Source of the DNA: an uncultured Bacteroidota bacterium
Lineage (GTDB): Bacteria > Bacteroidota > Bacteroidia > Flavobacteriales_D > Crocinitomicaceae
NCBI GenBank assembly: GCA_937899625.1
Contig: CALCCB010000028.1
Span: forward strand, 1 to 45,522
Direction of reading: 5' to 3'
Length of the DNA stretch: 45,522 nucleotides
The notes beneath the pieces were generated by a model. It was not told the origin of the DNA. It did not search any database and was given only the letters and a program-made list of their open reading frames with translations. Below, in pieces: positions 5,881-12,278 of the stretch (position 1 is the stretch's first letter; the number at the start of each line of letters is the position of its first letter). The position numbers were made by a program, and so were the translations under genes.

Positions 5881-6651
5881 GTGAATAAGGTTAGCGAATT
5901 TATAAAATATAAAGTTAAGGCGAAAGGAAGACATGGAGTCCATTCTCCTTTTGTTTATGACCTTGTTGACAAGTGTTTCAAAGTAACTTTTGATGAAAAT
6001 GTATTAAAAGACAGAAAATCATTCTATGACTCCATTTCCTCCGATGATCGAAAGATTCAAATTGAAGATCACGGGGTGGGGTCACACCGTCTTGGACGAC
6101 AACGAATAATTAAAGACATATTCAAGACAAGTTCATCCAGAGGAAAATATGGTGACCTCCTCTATAAGTTATCTAAATTCTATCAACCTAAAAGGATACT
6201 GGAATTAGGTACTTCAATTGGGGTAGGAACTTTTCATTTGTCAAAAGGAAATCCATCTGCAGAAGTGATCACGGTTGAGGGATGTTCAGAAACAGCGAGG
6301 ATCGCAAGTGAGAATATGCAGAAAATGGACTTGAAGAATGTCAAATTAATTCAATCGACTTTTGACAAGTACATATCGACCCTACCCGAAGAGACTCGTT
6401 TTGATTTGGTGTTTATTGATGGTCACCACGATGGCCATGCATTGTTGAACTATTTAAATGCTTTAAATCCTTTTACAACGGATGATACGCTTTTTGTACT
6501 TGACGATATTCGATGGTCTGATTCAATGCTAAAGGCATTTCATGAAATTATCCAAAGCGAAGTGTATCATTTGACGATTGACCTTTATCGGATTGCCATT
6601 GTTTCAAGAAAACCAGGGCAGCACAAGGAGCACTTTGCTATGAAGTACTAA
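5881..6651 (+). CDS. Class I SAM-dependent methyltransferase
   Basis: This 256-residue Rossmann methyltransferase has a SAM-binding motif I at about 106-121 (ILELGTSIGVGTFHLS). It is followed by the acidic ribose-binding end of strand 2 (VITVEG) and FIDGHHDGHALLNY, a motif typical of O-methyltransferases of the caffeoyl-CoA/Methyltransf_24 type. The N-terminal KAKGRHGVHSPFVYDLV block is characteristic of a Bacteroidota subfamily. The start codon is GTG, and no in-frame ATG precedes that conserved block. The start lies 15 bases from the divergent DUF4301 start, so promoters must overlap the coding ends. The 3' end overlaps the opposing transporter gene by 14 bases. Substrate unknown. Confidence 0.82.
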   Translation: MNKVSEFIKYKVKAKGRHGVHSPFVYDLVDKCFKVTFDENVLKDRKSFYDSISSDDRKIQIEDHGVGSHRLGRQRIIKDIFKTSSSRGKYGDLLYKLSKFYQPKRILELGTSIGVGTFHLSKGNPSAEVITVEGCSETARIASENMQKMDLKNVKLIQSTFDKYISTLPEETRFDLVFIDGHHDGHALLNYLNALNPFTTDDTLFVLDDIRWSDSMLKAFHEIIQSEVYHLTIDLYRIAIVSRKPGQHKEHFAMKY

Positions 6652-7969
6652 CGACTGTATCGACTTCCTTTTTAGGGACGAAGAACAGTGCGATCATACC
6701 AATAACGAAAAAGAAGGCTACCGCACTTATCGAATAGCGAATTGATCCAAAAAGCACCTCCATCAGACCAAAGCTGAATGTTCCTAAGACGATACCGATC
6801 TTCTCAGTTACATCATAAAACGAAAAATAGGATGCGTGATCCTGTGTTTCAGGTAGAAATTTTGAATAGGTACTGCGACCAACTGCCTGTACACCACCCA
6901 TTACTAGTCCTACAGCAGCCGCTAAAGCATAAAATTCAGCCGGTGAATGGATGAAATAAGCAGCGACACATATTCCGATCCAGATCGAAACGGAAATCAT
7001 TAGTGTGTATATATTTCCAATTTTACTCGATAACCTAGACATGATAAATGCTCCGACTGCACCTAGGATTTGAATAAGGAGAATGGCAATTATTAATCCG
7101 GAGTCTCCACCATCTGACGGCCAATCTATTTCCTTTTTCGCGAAATAAACTGCCATTAACATAACGGTCTGTATTCCAGTGTTAAAGAAAAAGAAGGATA
7201 AAAGGTATCTCTTCAATCTACGTGTCTTGATGAATTCCTTTAAGACATTTCTGAGCTCCTTGAAACCATTTAGTAAAACTCCTTTTTGCTTGGGCCTGTT
7301 ATGAACATTTACAGGAAGGACTCTGAACGTAAATTGACTAAAGAACATCCACCAAACACCAACTAATAAAAAGCTCAATGATGTGTATTTTGGATCAATT
7401 TTCATGATGATCAATAAACAGATCACGAGAAGGATCATACTACCAAAATACCCCATAGAAAAACCTCTCGCTGAAATTTTATCATGATCTTCAGGTTCGG
7501 CGATCTCTGGTAAAAAGGCATTGTAGAATACGAGACTGTTCCAGAATCCTATACTTCCAAGAAAGATCGAGAGCATTCCTACTTCGTACGGAACATCTTC
7601 GAAAAAATATAGGCTCATACAAGATAAAGCACCCAGATAACAAAAGAACTGCATAAATCGTTTTTTGTTACCCGTTAAATCAGCTACACCGGAAAGCATT
7701 GGTGATAATACAGACACAACAAGAAAGCTTGCTGAAAGAACATATGAAATAAGAACAGAAGAAGAAAACTCGTGACCGAAGAAGTCTACAGTAACCTGCA
7801 TTCCTTCAGGAAGCTCTTGAAGATTGTGTTTCTCTAAAAACCTCGAAGTACTTACATTTTCGTAAAAAATAGGGAAGATCGCTGAGGAAATAACAAGATT
7901 GTAAACCGAATTAGCCCAATCATAAAATACCCATCCTCTGATTATTTTTTTATCTCCTTTTACTAGCAT
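6638..7969 (-). CDS. MFS transporter, UMF1 (Atg22-like) family
   Basis: This 443-residue integral membrane protein has about 12 hydrophobic segments. The N-terminal block RGWVFYDWANSVYNLVISSAIFP (about 11-33) is the hallmark of the UMF1/Atg22-like branch of the major facilitator superfamily. Later family features include FYNAFLPEIAEPEDHDKISARGFSMGYFGS and the second-half GGVQAVGRSTYSKFLPE loop. Substrates of bacterial UMF1 proteins are not known; the yeast homologue exports amino acids from the vacuole. It is the last gene of the leftward unit, 5 bases after the dehydrogenase gene. A role in exporting or importing the unit's product is inference. Confidence 0.87.
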   Translation of the reverse strand: MLVKGDKKIIRGWVFYDWANSVYNLVISSAIFPIFYENVSTSRFLEKHNLQELPEGMQVTVDFFGHEFSSSVLISYVLSASFLVVSVLSPMLSGVADLTGNKKRFMQFFCYLGALSCMSLYFFEDVPYEVGMLSIFLGSIGFWNSLVFYNAFLPEIAEPEDHDKISARGFSMGYFGSMILLVICLLIIMKIDPKYTSLSFLLVGVWWMFFSQFTFRVLPVNVHNRPKQKGVLLNGFKELRNVLKEFIKTRRLKRYLLSFFFFNTGIQTVMLMAVYFAKKEIDWPSDGGDSGLIIAILLIQILGAVGAFIMSRLSSKIGNIYTLMISVSIWIGICVAAYFIHSPAEFYALAAAVGLVMGGVQAVGRSTYSKFLPETQDHASYFSFYDVTEKIGIVLGTFSFGLMEVLFGSIRYSISAVAFFFVIGMIALFFVPKKEVDTVVSTS

Positions 7970-7974
7970 TATTT

Positions 7975-9192
7975 CTATTCTTCACCATTAACGAATGGCT
8001 GAAGATAGTTAAAATAATTTGTCAGCTGGCCCTCCTTGTTTGTTTCAGTCGCTCGCTCAATGATCTTATCAGGGTCATCCTTTATTAAATAAGGAATGAC
8101 ATGTTTTAGCATTTCGTTGCCAAAATCTTCTGAAGCATCAAGCGGTAATTCGCAAGGTAAGTTGTCCACAGCCATTACAGCAATGGCTCCTTTATTCATG
8201 AAGTCCGTCTCAGATTCAGTCATCGGATCATACCCATAAATAGGATCTGAAATTTTACTTGGGCGTATTGTACATGCAATTGGACCATCAATATCACAGC
8301 TAATGTCTGCTACCACACTCAATCTGATCTCTTTTTTAAGATCATCTCTCGTAATGATAAAAGGAGATTTACTATTCCAATAGTGACATGGAATGTACAT
8401 ATCTGTTTCCGGTAAGAAACGACTGAATATTGATTTGTAAAGCTCAGGGTTACTATAGAATTCTCCTTTATCGAATTCTTTGCCATCCTTTCTTCCGAAA
8501 TAATCCTCCGCTTCCAGATGGGTGAAAACGGGCTGATCGAAACTTTTTGAAAGGTATTCTTCCGGACCTACTTCCTTGATCGGCAAAAGATCAATGATTT
8601 CACGAGCGCCATGACCTACGCGCCCAAAACCAGTTAAAGCGATTTTTGTATTGGAAGGCAGTTTAACTTTTTGCAATTCAAGCTCAAGCTCTTTTCGGTC
8701 AGCACAAAGATGAGCCGGTTTTAAATCGTACAATCCATGTTTCTTCCCGAAGGCAAGGAATCCATTATAACATCCTACAATACCAGCATATCTACCGAAT
8801 CCGATTAGTCTTTTGTTATGTCGGTCTTTGATCACCTCATAATCGATCAATTCGATCTTCCTTTTGAGTATTTCTCTTAGTAATTCTCTATTGTACGGTT
8901 GTTTCTTGATCGTATGAGAAAAGAATAGATAGGTTTTATTTGGGATCAGATCGTCTATTTTAACTTCCTTTACCCCAAGGATGATGTCACAGTTTTCAAG
9001 GCTATTAACGATCTTGACTCCTTGAGCTTCATATTCTTCATCCTTATATGCCCTTATCGGACTCGTTTGAGCAACAACTTCCACGTTAGGATACAACGTC
9101 ATCACCTTTTTGCATTGCTGCGGTGTTAACGGTACACGATGATCAGGTGGAACTTTTCCTTCTCTAATTAATCCGATAATAATTTTTTCCAT
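7975..9192 (-). CDS. AlaDH/PNT-fold dehydrogenase resembling lysine-forming saccharopine dehydrogenase
   Basis: This 405-residue two-domain NAD(P)-dependent oxidoreductase has an N-terminal AlaDh_PNT-type domain (GLIREGKVPPDHRVPLTP, EYEAQGVKIV, DIILGVKEV, YLFFSHTIKKQ). The block LIGFGRYAGIVGCYNGFLAFG resembles yeast LYS1-type saccharopine dehydrogenase, and a Rossmann glycine motif (TGFGRVGHGA) sits at about 187-196. The C-terminal half has VVADISCDIDGPIACTIRPS and DPIYGYDP, signatures of a Bacteroidota subgroup usually named simply NAD(P)-dependent oxidoreductase or alanine dehydrogenase. I am confident of the fold but not of the substrate: saccharopine, alanine or another amino/keto acid is possible. 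It lies 17 bases after the KdsC-like gene and 5 bases before the UMF1 gene. Confidence 0.78.
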   Translation of the reverse strand: MEKIIIGLIREGKVPPDHRVPLTPQQCKKVMTLYPNVEVVAQTSPIRAYKDEEYEAQGVKIVNSLENCDIILGVKEVKIDDLIPNKTYLFFSHTIKKQPYNRELLREILKRKIELIDYEVIKDRHNKRLIGFGRYAGIVGCYNGFLAFGKKHGLYDLKPAHLCADRKELELELQKVKLPSNTKIALTGFGRVGHGAREIIDLLPIKEVGPEEYLSKSFDQPVFTHLEAEDYFGRKDGKEFDKGEFYSNPELYKSIFSRFLPETDMYIPCHYWNSKSPFIITRDDLKKEIRLSVVADISCDIDGPIACTIRPSKISDPIYGYDPMTESETDFMNKGAIAVMAVDNLPCELPLDASEDFGNEMLKHVIPYLIKDDPDKIIERATETNKEGQLTNYFNYLQPFVNGEE

Positions 9193-9209: not shown

Positions 9210-9890
9210 TTATTCAATTGGGGATTTCATGAGATATGCATCGATAAATTCTCGAACACATCCTTGTCCACCCTTGGTATTTAATATAATATCAACCTGA
9301 CTTTTGACTACAGGAACAGCATCCACAGGTGCAGCAGAAACCCCAACATTTCTCATCACTTCAAGATCATTAATGTCGTCTCCAATGATTGCCACCTCAT
9401 CAAGTGTAATAGATAATTCTTTGCATAGACCTCGTAACAAGTCGATTTTTGGATCTCTGCTCACAATACAGTGTTGTATTCCAAGCATGCTTGCCCGTGC
9501 TTTCACCATTTCCGCCTTGAATCCTGAGGAGATGATGGCAACCTGATAGCCATTTTTAATAAGGTGTTGGATGCCCATACCATCCTTGGTATTGTATTTC
9601 TTGAACTGGTCTCCATTCTCAGTGAAATACATCCCACCATCAGTCATTACACCGTCTACATCCAGTACAATTAACTTTATCTTGCTCAGCTTTTTCCCAT
9701 AAAGGTCATTTCTGAACATTGGTTTGAACATGAGACTTTGAAAGTCAGTTTCGTATTCTTCACAAACAGCCTGAAGGTCAAAAATTGATAGCTCATGAAC
9801 GTTATCAGCATCCATGTCATTCAGGAAGTCGTCAAATTCGATCCCGTTTCTCTTGCAAAGTGCTTTTATGTTCTGTTCTAAGTAGATCAT
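9210..9890 (-). CDS. KdsC-like HAD phosphatase with HTH-like N-terminal extension
   Basis: This 226-residue HAD-superfamily phosphatase has a KdsC-type cap-less core at about 68-226. Nucleophile and acid are Asp77 and Asp79 (LDVDGVMTDG); motif II is replaced by IISSG (about 119-123) where KdsC has ITGRxS. Motif III Lys148 is in DPKIDLL, motif IV is GDDINDLEVM (Asp171, Asp172, Asp175), and the family tail GGQGCVREF is present. KdsC dephosphorylates Kdo-8-phosphate; related enzymes act on KDN- or Neu5Ac-9-phosphate. KdsC is normally 170-190 residues. The extra first 60 residues look like a shortened XRE helix-turn-helix (NIKALCKRNGIEFDDFL, then LSIFDLQAVCEEYETDFQSLMF). The start overlaps the stop of the DAHP synthase gene by one base (TGATG). 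Exact substrate uncertain. Confidence 0.82.
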   Translation of the reverse strand: MIYLEQNIKALCKRNGIEFDDFLNDMDADNVHELSIFDLQAVCEEYETDFQSLMFKPMFRNDLYGKKLSKIKLIVLDVDGVMTDGGMYFTENGDQFKKYNTKDGMGIQHLIKNGYQVAIISSGFKAEMVKARASMLGIQHCIVSRDPKIDLLRGLCKELSITLDEVAIIGDDINDLEVMRNVGVSAAPVDAVPVVKSQVDIILNTKGGQGCVREFIDAYLMKSPIE

Positions 9891-10888
9891 CAGATAATGT
9901 TATAACCGACACTATTTGCTACTGGCTTTAATTCGGCCAGTAATTTTTCGAACTGTGCATGATCCAATTGCTGAGAAGCATCAGATTTGGCTACGCTTGG
10001 ATCCGGATGAACTTCAATTAAAAGTCCGTCAATTCCCATCGCGGTGCAAGCTTTAGATAGAGCAGGGACACCATACGCATACCCCATGGCATGAGATGGA
10101 TCCAGTATGATCGGTAAATTAGTGTGTTCCTGCAACCAGGCTACTCCACAAAGGTCTAAGGTGAATCTCGTTCCTGTTTCAAAGGTTCTTAAACCTCGTT
10201 CACAAAGGATTACGTTTTCATTTCCTCCTGAAAGAACGAATTCAGCCGATTGAACGAATTCCTGAAGAGTCGTTCCAAAACCTCTTTTGATCAGTACCGG
10301 TTTTTTGATTTTCGAACAAGCTCTAAGAATTCCCTGGTCGTACATCGCCTTGGCTCCAACCTGAATTACATCAGTATACTCTATGATTTCATCAATATGT
10401 GTAGCGTCTCTGGCTTCAGTGATCACTGTAAGACCAAATTCTTCACGCATTTTAGCAAGTAGTTTCAAACCATCAAGACCCATTCCCTGAAAAGAATATG
10501 GACTCGTTCTGGGTTTATAGCAACCTCCTCTCAGTGTCGTAAGTCCATTTTTGATCAGTAGTTGAGAAGACATTCTAATCTGCTCCTCGGATTCCACTGA
10601 ACAGGGTCCCGCAATAACGATCGTATTATTATTTGTTCCTCCAATCTTTATATTTCCGATAGATACTTCTCTCTTTTCATTCTGATATTTCCTTGAAGAC
10701 AATTGCATATCGTTCGGGAATACCCAATATTGATCCGTATGTTCGACTAAAGATTGAGGAACTTCCTTAACACCTGATCCGGTTACAAGGATTTGAATGT
10801 CACCATTGGTAACGTGAAATGCTTTATTTTCCTTAGCCAGTTGAGATGCTCTATCTACACTGACATTGGGCTTCAAATGAATGATCAT
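9890..10888 (-). CDS. aroF: 3-deoxy-7-phosphoheptulonate (DAHP) synthase, type I-beta
   Basis: This 332-residue enzyme condenses PEP and erythrose-4-phosphate, the first step of the shikimate pathway. Residues 1-70 form a ferredoxin-like regulatory domain as in Thermotoga DAHP synthase, and about 75-332 is the TIM barrel. Visible sites are GPCSVES (metal ligand Cys96), RGGCYKPRTSPYSFQG (about 120-135), LIKRGF, ILCERGLRTFE, LDPSHAMG (metal-binding His) and EVHPDP. The block that usually reads GARNMQNF is here GAKAMYDQ (about 178-185), replacing the usual Arg with Lys. KPRTSPYSFQG separates it from Kdo-8-P synthase. It overlaps its upstream gene by 4 bases and its downstream gene by 1. Confidence 0.88.
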   Translation of the reverse strand: MIIHLKPNVSVDRASQLAKENKAFHVTNGDIQILVTGSGVKEVPQSLVEHTDQYWVFPNDMQLSSRKYQNEKREVSIGNIKIGGTNNNTIVIAGPCSVESEEQIRMSSQLLIKNGLTTLRGGCYKPRTSPYSFQGMGLDGLKLLAKMREEFGLTVITEARDATHIDEIIEYTDVIQVGAKAMYDQGILRACSKIKKPVLIKRGFGTTLQEFVQSAEFVLSGGNENVILCERGLRTFETGTRFTLDLCGVAWLQEHTNLPIILDPSHAMGYAYGVPALSKACTAMGIDGLLIEVHPDPSVAKSDASQQLDHAQFEKLLAELKPVANSVGYNII

Positions 10889-11889
10889 ATTTCTCCTTTG
10901 ATGAGGTTGGCAAAGTTAACAATTCCCGCCGTTTTTCTATCTTTTTTTAACACCGGAAGATACATCACCGGAAATTTACACAACTTGATCGTTTTCAGCA
11001 TCTCAAAGACCGTATCAGAGTCTTTAATAGCAACAGGTTGAGTATTCAACATTTCCGTGACATTAATTTTATTCAAGTCGTCGAGATGTCTTAAAAGAGA
11101 TTTTCGGATGTCTGCGCTGGATATCAATCCATAAAAAGTGTGATCCGACTTAAGGACCAGGCAAAAACCAATGTTTCCTTTTTCAATCGTTTGTAGAACG
11201 TTTTCGAGCGTTAATTCTTTCTCGTAAACGATTGGACATTCCTCCAGAGGTGTCATAAAATCCTCCACATGGAAGTTTGATTCGATATTGCGCTTTGTGA
11301 GATTCATGAGCGCATGTCCGATACTTGGTGCGTTAAAGAGATACGATCCGGATACAGAAGATGATACTCCCATATTCCTCAATATGAATGATACCTCCCC
11401 GTTTACTCCGCCATCAACATGAATTGATTTGTCGGGATAATTTTTTCTGAATTGACGGATCTTAGAGAAATTTAGCTTGTCAAAAACGCCTCCACTTTGT
11501 CCTGGGATAGTTGCCATGATCAGGATAAAATCAAATCCTTTATAGTCTTCAAATATTGTAATAGGTGTAGGAGTGATTATTGCGATTCCTTTTTTACCAA
11601 TGATATCATCTGGTAGGATCAGTGGGTGAGAAAGGTCTTCGTGTTGAAAGGTCAGATATTCTACAGGGTGCTTTCTCAATAACTCAAAATACTTTTCAGG
11701 AGCATCTGTAATAATGTGAAGATCGATCGGTAGGTCACACCATTCCCTGATCAAGACAATGTCGTTAAAAACGCTTAAGTCATCGTTGCAATCGACGTGT
11801 AAAAGATCTACTTGATGATCGACAAGGTCAGTTATAACTTCCTTCAGATTCCTTTTCTTGTCACTGTATATTGATGCAGAGATCTTCAT
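10885..11889 (-). CDS. Ribulose-phosphate 3-epimerase-like barrel fused to two CBS domains
   Basis: This 334-residue fusion has an RPE-like TIM barrel at about 1-200. The four metal-ligand positions of ribulose-phosphate 3-epimerase can be matched: His31 and Asp33 (LLHVDCNDD), His58 (DLHIIT) and Asp159 (HVDGGV). The NPGFGGQ loop reads IPGQSGG, and the phosphate site is SGSYLF. Residues about 205-334 are two CBS motifs; the GLISSADIRKSLL and VTEMLNTQPVAI blocks closely resemble the CBS pair of arabinose-5-phosphate isomerases (KpsF/KdsD). The CBS part probably binds a nucleotide and controls the barrel. Standard RPE is about 220 residues without CBS. It is coupled on both sides (TAATG upstream, ATGA downstream). 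Activity and the ligand are inference. Confidence 0.8.
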   Translation of the reverse strand: MKISASIYSDKKRNLKEVITDLVDHQVDLLHVDCNDDLSVFNDIVLIREWCDLPIDLHIITDAPEKYFELLRKHPVEYLTFQHEDLSHPLILPDDIIGKKGIAIITPTPITIFEDYKGFDFILIMATIPGQSGGVFDKLNFSKIRQFRKNYPDKSIHVDGGVNGEVSFILRNMGVSSSVSGSYLFNAPSIGHALMNLTKRNIESNFHVEDFMTPLEECPIVYEKELTLENVLQTIEKGNIGFCLVLKSDHTFYGLISSADIRKSLLRHLDDLNKINVTEMLNTQPVAIKDSDTVFEMLKTIKLCKFPVMYLPVLKKDRKTAGIVNFANLIKGEI

Positions 11890-12278
11890 TATTGATTGAT
11901 ATTGTAAAGTGGTTCGAATTGGTTGTCACAAATTACGATCTGACACCTTTTTTCTTCATTGAAAATAATCGAATCCATTTTGTGCTGAAGATCTAAAAGT
12001 AATTTCCTCTCAGGAATGGGAAGTTCATTTAGACCGGTTTTTTCGTTCGCAATAAGTTGAATGTAATAGAAATCATCGTCTTTGGTTAATCTGATCGATT
12101 GTTTGACACTTCCTGTTAGTCCTTCTTTGATCCAGAATTTCCCTAATTCCTCAGCGATCATTTCGTCATTTTTGAATTCAAAATATACGTCAACAGATTC
12201 ATGTTCAAGTTTGTTTCCAAAACCTTGGGAACAGGCTGAAAATAAAAGGATCAATGAGAATAGTACAATCCGATTCAT
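11889..12278 (-). CDS. Small lipoprotein of unknown function
   Basis: This 129-residue protein has a short leader and a lipobox (LFSAC, Cys at about 16), so it is probably anchored in a membrane facing the periplasm. The mature part is acidic to mixed, with no domain I recognise; DDDFYYIQLIANEKTG and PERKLLLDLQHKMDSIIF are its most structured-looking segments. It is the first gene of the leftward unit, and its stop overlaps the start of the RPE-CBS gene by one base (TAATG). A lipoprotein leading a set of cytoplasmic enzymes may be present only for operon reasons. A near-consensus -7 element (TATCTTTA) lies just before the start. Confidence 0.7.
   Translation of the reverse strand: MNRIVLFSLILLFSACSQGFGNKLEHESVDVYFEFKNDEMIAEELGKFWIKEGLTGSVKQSIRLTKDDDFYYIQLIANEKTGLNELPIPERKLLLDLQHKMDSIIFNEEKRCQIVICDNQFEPLYNINQ

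Follow-up and report, generated by a model that had tools for sequence, protein, structure and literature searches.

The window analysed here is a stretch of 45,522 nucleotides (contig CALCCB010000028.1, assembly GCA_937899625.1) from an uncultured Crocinitomicaceae bacterium, whose 2.93-Mb draft genome has a completeness of 94.6% and a contamination of 0.8%. Our analysis concerns a gene in which a barrel of the ribulose-phosphate 3-epimerase (RPE) type is fused to a pair of CBS domains, together with the two genes that follow it, which encode a protein resembling 3-deoxy-D-arabino-heptulosonate 7-phosphate (DAHP) synthase (DAHPS) and a phosphatase of the KdsC family. The open reading frame (ORF) of the fusion was confirmed at exactly 10885-11889 and encodes 334 amino acids from an ATG start; its strand, absent from an earlier note on this DNA, is the minus strand. 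The three genes form a module with the following features, proposed functions being marked as such:

10885..11889, minus strand: RPE-barrel/CBS fusion protein, 334 amino acids, lead gene of the module and proposed arabinose-5-phosphate supplier (ORF, Pfam, genome surveys)
11335..11886, minus strand: RPE-type barrel (PF00834), residues 2-185 (Pfam, Foldseek)
10888..11280, minus strand: CBS pair, residues 204-334, closest to that of KdsD (NCBIfam, profile, Foldseek)
11872..11874, minus strand: S6, active-site serine position, invariant (33/33 diverse sequences)
11797..11799, minus strand: H31, metal-ligand position (PDB alignments; 33/33)
11791..11793, minus strand: D33, metal-ligand and catalytic acid-base position (PDB alignments; 33/33)
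11716..11718, minus strand: H58, metal-ligand position (PDB alignments; 33/33)
11413..11415, minus strand: D159, metal-ligand and catalytic acid-base position (PDB alignments; 33/33)
10885..10888, minus strand: ATGA overlap of 4 bases between the fusion stop and the start of the next gene (sequence)
9890..10888, minus strand: DAHP-synthase-like protein, 332 amino acids, second gene and proposed 3-deoxy-D-manno-octulosonate (Kdo) 8-phosphate synthase (Pfam, NCBIfam)
9210..9890, minus strand: KdsC-family HAD phosphatase, 226 amino acids with an N-terminal extension, proposed Kdo-8-phosphate phosphatase (Pfam, NCBIfam)

In a Pfam scan, PF00834 matches residues 2-185 of the fusion at 77.4 bits (cut-off 21.1) and the CBS family PF00571 matches residues 208-266 at 35.4 bits (cut-off 24), and the NCBIfam models for KpsF, KdsD and CbpB align to residues ~206-330, which corresponds to the length of a CBS pair. 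The AlphaFold model of the fusion has a mean pLDDT of 87.7 and a pTM of 0.85. Foldseek returns RPE structures as the top matches of the barrel (human RPE 3ovp, E 5.6e-11) and superposes the C-terminus on CBS pairs. The fusion of an RPE barrel to a CBS pair, as first read from the letters alone, is thus real by ORF, Pfam and Foldseek. A chance or annotation artefact is rejected by its recurrence, with 80 near loci kept out of 148 found and the fusion present in 112/120 genomes of the window's family. Those relatives that bear names are mostly Crocinitomicaceae, Fluviicola or Flavobacteriales; a few are labelled Actinomyces or Candidatus Kuenenia and look like mislabelled metagenome bins.

The gene order of the module recurs across Bacteroidota. 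The ATGA overlap suggests translational coupling of the fusion and the DAHPS-like gene, and the DAHPS-like and KdsC-like genes overlap by one base. Among the near loci, each of the two partners follows the fusion in 79/80 (contig-end matches included), the single miss for both being L068, where the contig ends just downstream. In the distant loci, which come from other families, the DAHPS-like gene adjoins the fusion in 32/33, the miss (L145) again lying at a contig end, and the KdsC-like gene falls within the fetched stretch in 25/33; in L132, a KdsB gene lies 1.3 kb from the module. The distances among fusions and among DAHPS-like proteins are correlated (Mantel r 0.53, 0/2000 permutations), as would also be expected from shared species history alone. 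The third gene exceeds the cut-off of the TIGR01670 subfamily (142.5 bits, cut-off 106.95) and stays under that of the KdsC equivalog NF007019 (143.8 bits, cut-off 208). Its product carries an N-terminal extension of ~65 residues, with the phosphatase domain beginning at residue 66-71, and many KdsC-like proteins of other families are merely 156-169 amino acids long.

Kdo, a core sugar of the outer membrane that is needed upstream of KdsB, is made from arabinose 5-phosphate. The two standard enzymes at the start of this synthesis are the arabinose-5-phosphate isomerase KdsD, whose catalytic domain is of the SIS type rather than a metal barrel, and the Kdo-8-phosphate synthase KdsA. In E. coli K-12, added arabinose 5-phosphate reportedly rescues a kdsD gutQ double mutant. 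We set the distribution of the fusion beside those of KdsD and KdsA, with one draw of 295 genomes of the class common to the searches for the fusion, KdsA, KdsD and the DAHPS-like protein. Carriers were defined by a match to the fusion profile at E < 1e-45, the next genome lying at 2.2e-22; the class sets were read off tables, and inspection of the rows by eye confirmed that no carrier is among those positive for KdsA or KdsD. By this definition, 66/295 genomes from 23 family codes carry the fusion. KdsA is over cut-off in 0/66 carriers and KdsD in 0/66, compared with 201 (KdsA) and 154 (KdsD) of the 229 non-carriers. The corresponding Fisher p values are 9e-44 for KdsA and 2e-26 for KdsD, although this test ignores shared descent. 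Both states occur within 12 families (f1, f6, f12, f17, f21, f24, f28, f29, f34, f38, f46 and f62) and within genera g18, g41, g45 and g70, which indicates many separate replacements, whichever way each of them went. The DAHPS-like type of the module, for which the threshold was set at E < 1e-140, follows the fusion closely, being found at E <= 5.5e-148 in 65/66 carriers and in 2/229 other genomes, with the next best match at 6.9e-97. The carrier without it (G353) has its fusion at a contig start, and G350, a non-carrier with this type, has a fusion fragment beside it on the same contig.

The family of the window shows the same pattern. Among 120 Crocinitomicaceae-level genomes, KdsD (TIGR00393) is over cut-off in 0/120 and KdsA (TIGR01362) in 2/120, whereas 112/120 contain the fusion at E < 1e-80, including G021, G076 and G105, in which the match is partial. 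Of the eight genomes without it, six are 67-84% complete (G016, G068, G073, G089, G097 and G101) and the other two are G038 and G052. When only the 95 good genomes (>= 90% complete, <= 5% contaminated) are considered, 93 have the fusion and two, G038 and G052, have KdsA, with no overlap; in these two, a SIS-only KdsD-like gene of 174 bits, under the 203.7 cut-off, lies directly beside KdsA. Downstream enzymes, surveyed in the window's family only, are nearly universal, with KdsB over the CMP-Kdo synthetase cut-off in 114/120 genomes and WaaA (Kdo transferase domain PF04413) in 118/120, which indicates that Kdo is transferred in this family. In same-genus members, the place taken by the fusion is held by KdsD beside KdsA (L163, L164). 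At two Crocinitomicaceae loci, L160 (7337-8729) and L161 (6587-7964), a SIS-only KdsD-like gene overlaps KdsA and there is no fusion; their genomes share genus code g18 with several carriers and so represent a natural swap.

Presence, absence and position together strongly support replacement of KdsD-KdsA by the module, and we consider it probable that the fusion, the DAHPS-like protein and the KdsC-like protein stand in for both enzymes in the Kdo pathway. The link to Kdo drawn in the earlier note is supported, but that note had recognised neither this operon nor the absence of KdsD and KdsA. In the proposed mechanism, the barrel would make D-arabinose 5-phosphate, the DAHPS-like partner would condense it with phosphoenolpyruvate to Kdo-8-phosphate, the KdsC-like phosphatase would dephosphorylate this product, and the CBS pair may allow a product of the pathway, for example CMP-Kdo, to exert feedback control. 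The fuller reading, towards which we lean with less assurance than to the replacement as such, is that of a second, independently recruited start of Kdo synthesis that has replaced KdsD-KdsA repeatedly across Bacteroidota, with a metal-dependent arabinose-5-phosphate enzyme built on an RPE barrel and feedback-gated by a CBS pair of the KdsD type, and with a Kdo-8-phosphate synthase derived from DAHPS.

It could be argued that arabinose 5-phosphate instead comes from another unrecognised enzyme, such as a diverged SIS protein, and that the fusion is an accessory or regulatory component of the same pathway. SIS proteins besides KdsD do exist in the window's genome, and in two carriers, G267 and G017, the KpsF model gives additional SIS matches. 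However, each SIS protein encoded in the window's own genome can be assigned, as a 621-amino-acid two-SIS protein (GlmS by size only), as GmhA and as a phosphoglucose/phosphomannose isomerase (both over cut-off, that of TIGR02128 in the second case), or as an N-acetylmuramate-6-phosphate etherase, so that a hidden KdsD among them is rejected within an assembly that is 94.6% complete. In addition, the active-site set of the fusion is invariant, and the fusion leads the operon and takes the place at which other members of the same genus have KdsD next to KdsA. We regard this alternative as very improbable, the least probable of those we weighed.

A number of observations nevertheless weigh against replacement of KdsD-KdsA by the module. 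G141 has a DAHPS-like gene and KdsA and no fusion; it may be a mixed bin, a true exception or a transitional state. Carriers G267 and G017 show their SIS matches to KpsF at E 1.5e-44 and 3e-26, respectively. Among the non-carriers, 19/229 are without KdsA at E < 1e-50 (read off the table), many of these being incomplete or reduced genomes and some having KdsD. A further difficulty lies in the class of the DAHPS-like partner, which exceeds the DAHPS cut-offs (PRK08673, 360.7 against 335; TIGR01361, 318.3 against 267.75), is far under that of KdsA (TIGR01362, 123.4 bits against 314), and keeps the KPRTS motif, which we take to be linked to erythrose 4-phosphate. The only other PF00793 protein of the genome, of 354 amino acids, is under the DAHPS cut-offs (185 and 169 bits). 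Because the partner is over these cut-offs and the other DAHPS-like protein is under them, there is room for an aromatic-pathway role of the module's gene.

In fold and in most signatures, the partner resembles the type I-beta DAHP synthases (TIGR01361; 1rzm, 1zco, 1vs1), one of which, from Pyrococcus furiosus (1zco), reportedly accepts pentose phosphates. It differs from them in belonging to a distinct group that has a clear boundary and is confined to carriers, with invariant stretches such as AKxMYD, KRGFG, DLCG and DPSHA...YG, at which 1vs1 and 1zco read otherwise. These features favour the proposed synthesis of Kdo-8-phosphate, as does the presence of a second DAHPS of canonical type in at least 11 carriers. 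With KdsA it shares the superfamily and the proposed reaction, but the two almost never co-occur, G141 being the single case seen. These DAHPS rather than KdsA signatures are what might be expected if the module made another 3-deoxy-ulosonic acid accepted by KdsB and WaaA, for instance an epimer of Kdo or a 7-carbon sugar derived from a tetrose phosphate, with the barrel epimerising the aldose or ketose phosphate that corresponds to it. Phosphatases of the KdsC family have several ulosonate phosphates as substrates, and the third gene matches the KDN-9-phosphatase model at 149 bits, under its cut-off of 180. Against such a product, KdsB of the family is over the CMP-Kdo synthetase cut-off in nearly all genomes, as given above, and the module alternates with KdsD-KdsA within genera, which is simplest with the same product. 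A different ulosonate is therefore unlikely, although it is the alternative to which we give the most credence.

The active site of the fusion argues for an enzyme. In PDB alignments to 1tqj and 1h1y, the residues H31, D33, H58 and D159 fall on the positions that we take to be the metal ligands of RPE. All four are invariant in 80/80 close sequences, a set in which conservation of H31-D37 is biased because the loci were found partly via the pattern LHVDCNDD. A diverse set of 33 sequences from 22 family codes was also compared, and S6, H31, D33, H58, M125, G130, S132, G134, D159, G160, G161 and G181 are unchanged in 33/33. Also invariant in this set is Q82, where the RPE of 1tqj has His. The retention of the four metal-ligand positions reported by the earlier note thus extends to the whole metal and catalytic set in distant relatives. 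Its further observation that CNDD stands in place of the VMDG of RPE is correct for the position, but the motif is no fixed signature, as position 34 is C in 26/33 and S in 6/33 of the diverse sequences and position 35 is N in 22/33. As the active-site residues are invariant even though the protein is far under the RPE cut-off, the plain reading is that the fusion is probably an active enzyme with a changed substrate.

In the RPE barrel, the metal and two Asp residues allow a proton next to the carbonyl to be abstracted and returned from the other side. Because both catalytic Asp and all four metal-ligand positions are kept, we slightly favour C2-epimerisation of D-ribose 5-phosphate, in which RPE chemistry would be moved by one carbon, over metal-dependent isomerisation of D-ribulose 5-phosphate, the 1,2 shift that is the reaction of KdsD. 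NanE, HisA and TrpF are phosphate-binding barrels with evolved aldose 2-epimerisation or aldose-ketose isomerisation and provide a precedent in the wider fold class for either proposed reaction. They differ from the fusion in acting on other substrates, in belonging to other families and in having no CBS pair.

The fusion is clearly distinct from ordinary RPE. Both share the barrel fold, the four metal-ligand and two catalytic Asp positions and the phosphate-loop glycines. The fusion, however, is only ~26% identical to Rpe (TIGR01163, PF00834), its VMDG loop is replaced, the His preceding the conserved Glu gives way to the invariant Q82, and a CBS pair has been added. It scores 69.8 bits against the RPE equivalog TIGR01163 (cut-off 212.6) and 38.2 bits against the allulose-6-phosphate 3-epimerase AlsE (NF007266, cut-off 271). 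In addition, a canonical RPE is encoded on contig C151 of the same genome (256 bits, compared with 79 for the fusion). A gated form of ordinary RPE is consequently rejected. The suggestion that RPE has a new control point in the form of a pentose-phosphate epimerase gated by a nucleotide is thus not supported, and the presence pattern is instead that of a substitute for KdsD plus KdsA.

Closest to that suggestion is the possibility that the fusion is a real RPE, or a close relative, steering pentose phosphates to erythrose 4-phosphate for a true DAHP synthase, with Kdo precursors coming from elsewhere. It would account for a barrel with intact ligand positions and for a neighbour that exceeds the DAHPS cut-offs in a genome whose other DAHPS-like protein falls under them. 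It is improbable given the separate canonical RPE, the distance of the fusion from the RPE equivalog and the second, canonical-type DAHPS match held by at least 11 carriers; it would also leave the 66/66 class carriers without KdsA or KdsD over cut-off and the KdsC-like gene unexplained.

The fusion resembles KdsD/KpsF/GutQ (TIGR00393) in its C-terminal CBS pair, its proposed product, its position ahead of an ulosonate synthase gene and its complementary presence pattern. KdsD-type enzymes consist of a SIS domain and two CBS domains (PMC10448790), and the same source reports that an E. coli K-12 kdsD gutQ double mutant is nonviable. In the Pfam scan, the fusion gives no SIS match and has the RPE barrel in place of SIS, and its score against TIGR00393 (21.5 bits, cut-off 203.7) comes from the CBS part only. 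In Foldseek, this part gives its best structural match (E 1.7e-8) with 4o9k, a CBS pair taken from a putative D-arabinose 5-phosphate isomerase, and its Klebsiella counterpart 3k2v is also among the CBS matches. Both structures were reportedly solved with CMP-Kdo. Among the class-survey matches listed, 44/51 CBS-only matches of the fusion profile fall on a KdsD protein; of the other 7, 3 fall elsewhere and 4 have no KdsD place among the matches listed. The resemblance of the CBS pair to that of arabinose-5-phosphate isomerase, proposed in the earlier note, is upheld by this profile and by Foldseek. With a CBS-only profile, 13 KdsD proteins score 31-60 bits and 7 IMPDH-type proteins, two of which were checked by family scan, score 22-29 bits.

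Other comparisons do not bear out so specific a kinship. In the reverse test, the KpsF model scores IMPDH-sized proteins at least as high as the fusion, and a tree of CBS pairs, in which those of the fusions form one group (SH-aLRT 93), does not separate KdsD from IMPDH relative to the fusion. In a PDB profile search with the CBS part, 4o9k ranks second, behind the archaeal CBS protein 2yzq. The pair also decays in places. Fusions of family f4 have no Pfam CBS domain in 4/4 scanned, but remnants of a decayed pair are still picked up when profiles are compared (probability 93.7, E 1.9e-7). The degenerate state of the pair in f4 indicates that gating is not essential everywhere, and control of the CBS pair by a Kdo product is plausible but not universal. 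At the f4 loci L154-L159, the CBS pair has decayed beyond Pfam recognition and the ligand positions of the barrel are kept.

Replacement of KdsD-KdsA by the module points to an unrecognised second way of making Kdo in many Bacteroidota, as both KdsA and KdsD fail to reach their cut-offs in many species from 23 family-level groups, and the downstream enzymes are present in the window's family. If this is correct, a step of the pathway is at present concealed in genome annotation by the labels 'ribulose-phosphate 3-epimerase' and 'DAHP synthase', and inhibitors directed at KdsA or KdsD would miss these bacteria. A new reaction would then have evolved on the RPE barrel, providing a clean case for the study of change in barrel enzymes and of CBS-pair transfer between catalytic domains, and no enzyme without the SIS fold would have been known before the fusion to form arabinose 5-phosphate. 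Among the papers listed by word searches of open-access full texts, there was no report of an RPE-CBS fusion or of an alternative to KdsD/KdsA, which does not show absence from print.

Further genes flank the module, two of which probably lie outside its core:

7975..9192, minus strand: AlaDH/PNT-N-type dehydrogenase, 405 amino acids, probably outside the core (Pfam, locus comparison)
6638..7969, minus strand: 443-amino-acid membrane protein, transporter-like by eye, probably outside the core (ORF, locus comparison)

In Crocinitomicaceae, the dehydrogenase follows the module in 73/80 loci and the 443-amino-acid membrane protein in 59/80 (L003-L082, contig ends included). Neither was seen beside the module in the distant loci, L141 being the exception with a single separate match. 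The gene immediately upstream of the fusion, at 11889-12278 on the minus strand, is one for a 129-amino-acid protein with no Pfam or NCBIfam match, which was found in 31/82 loci searched (the window copy counted).

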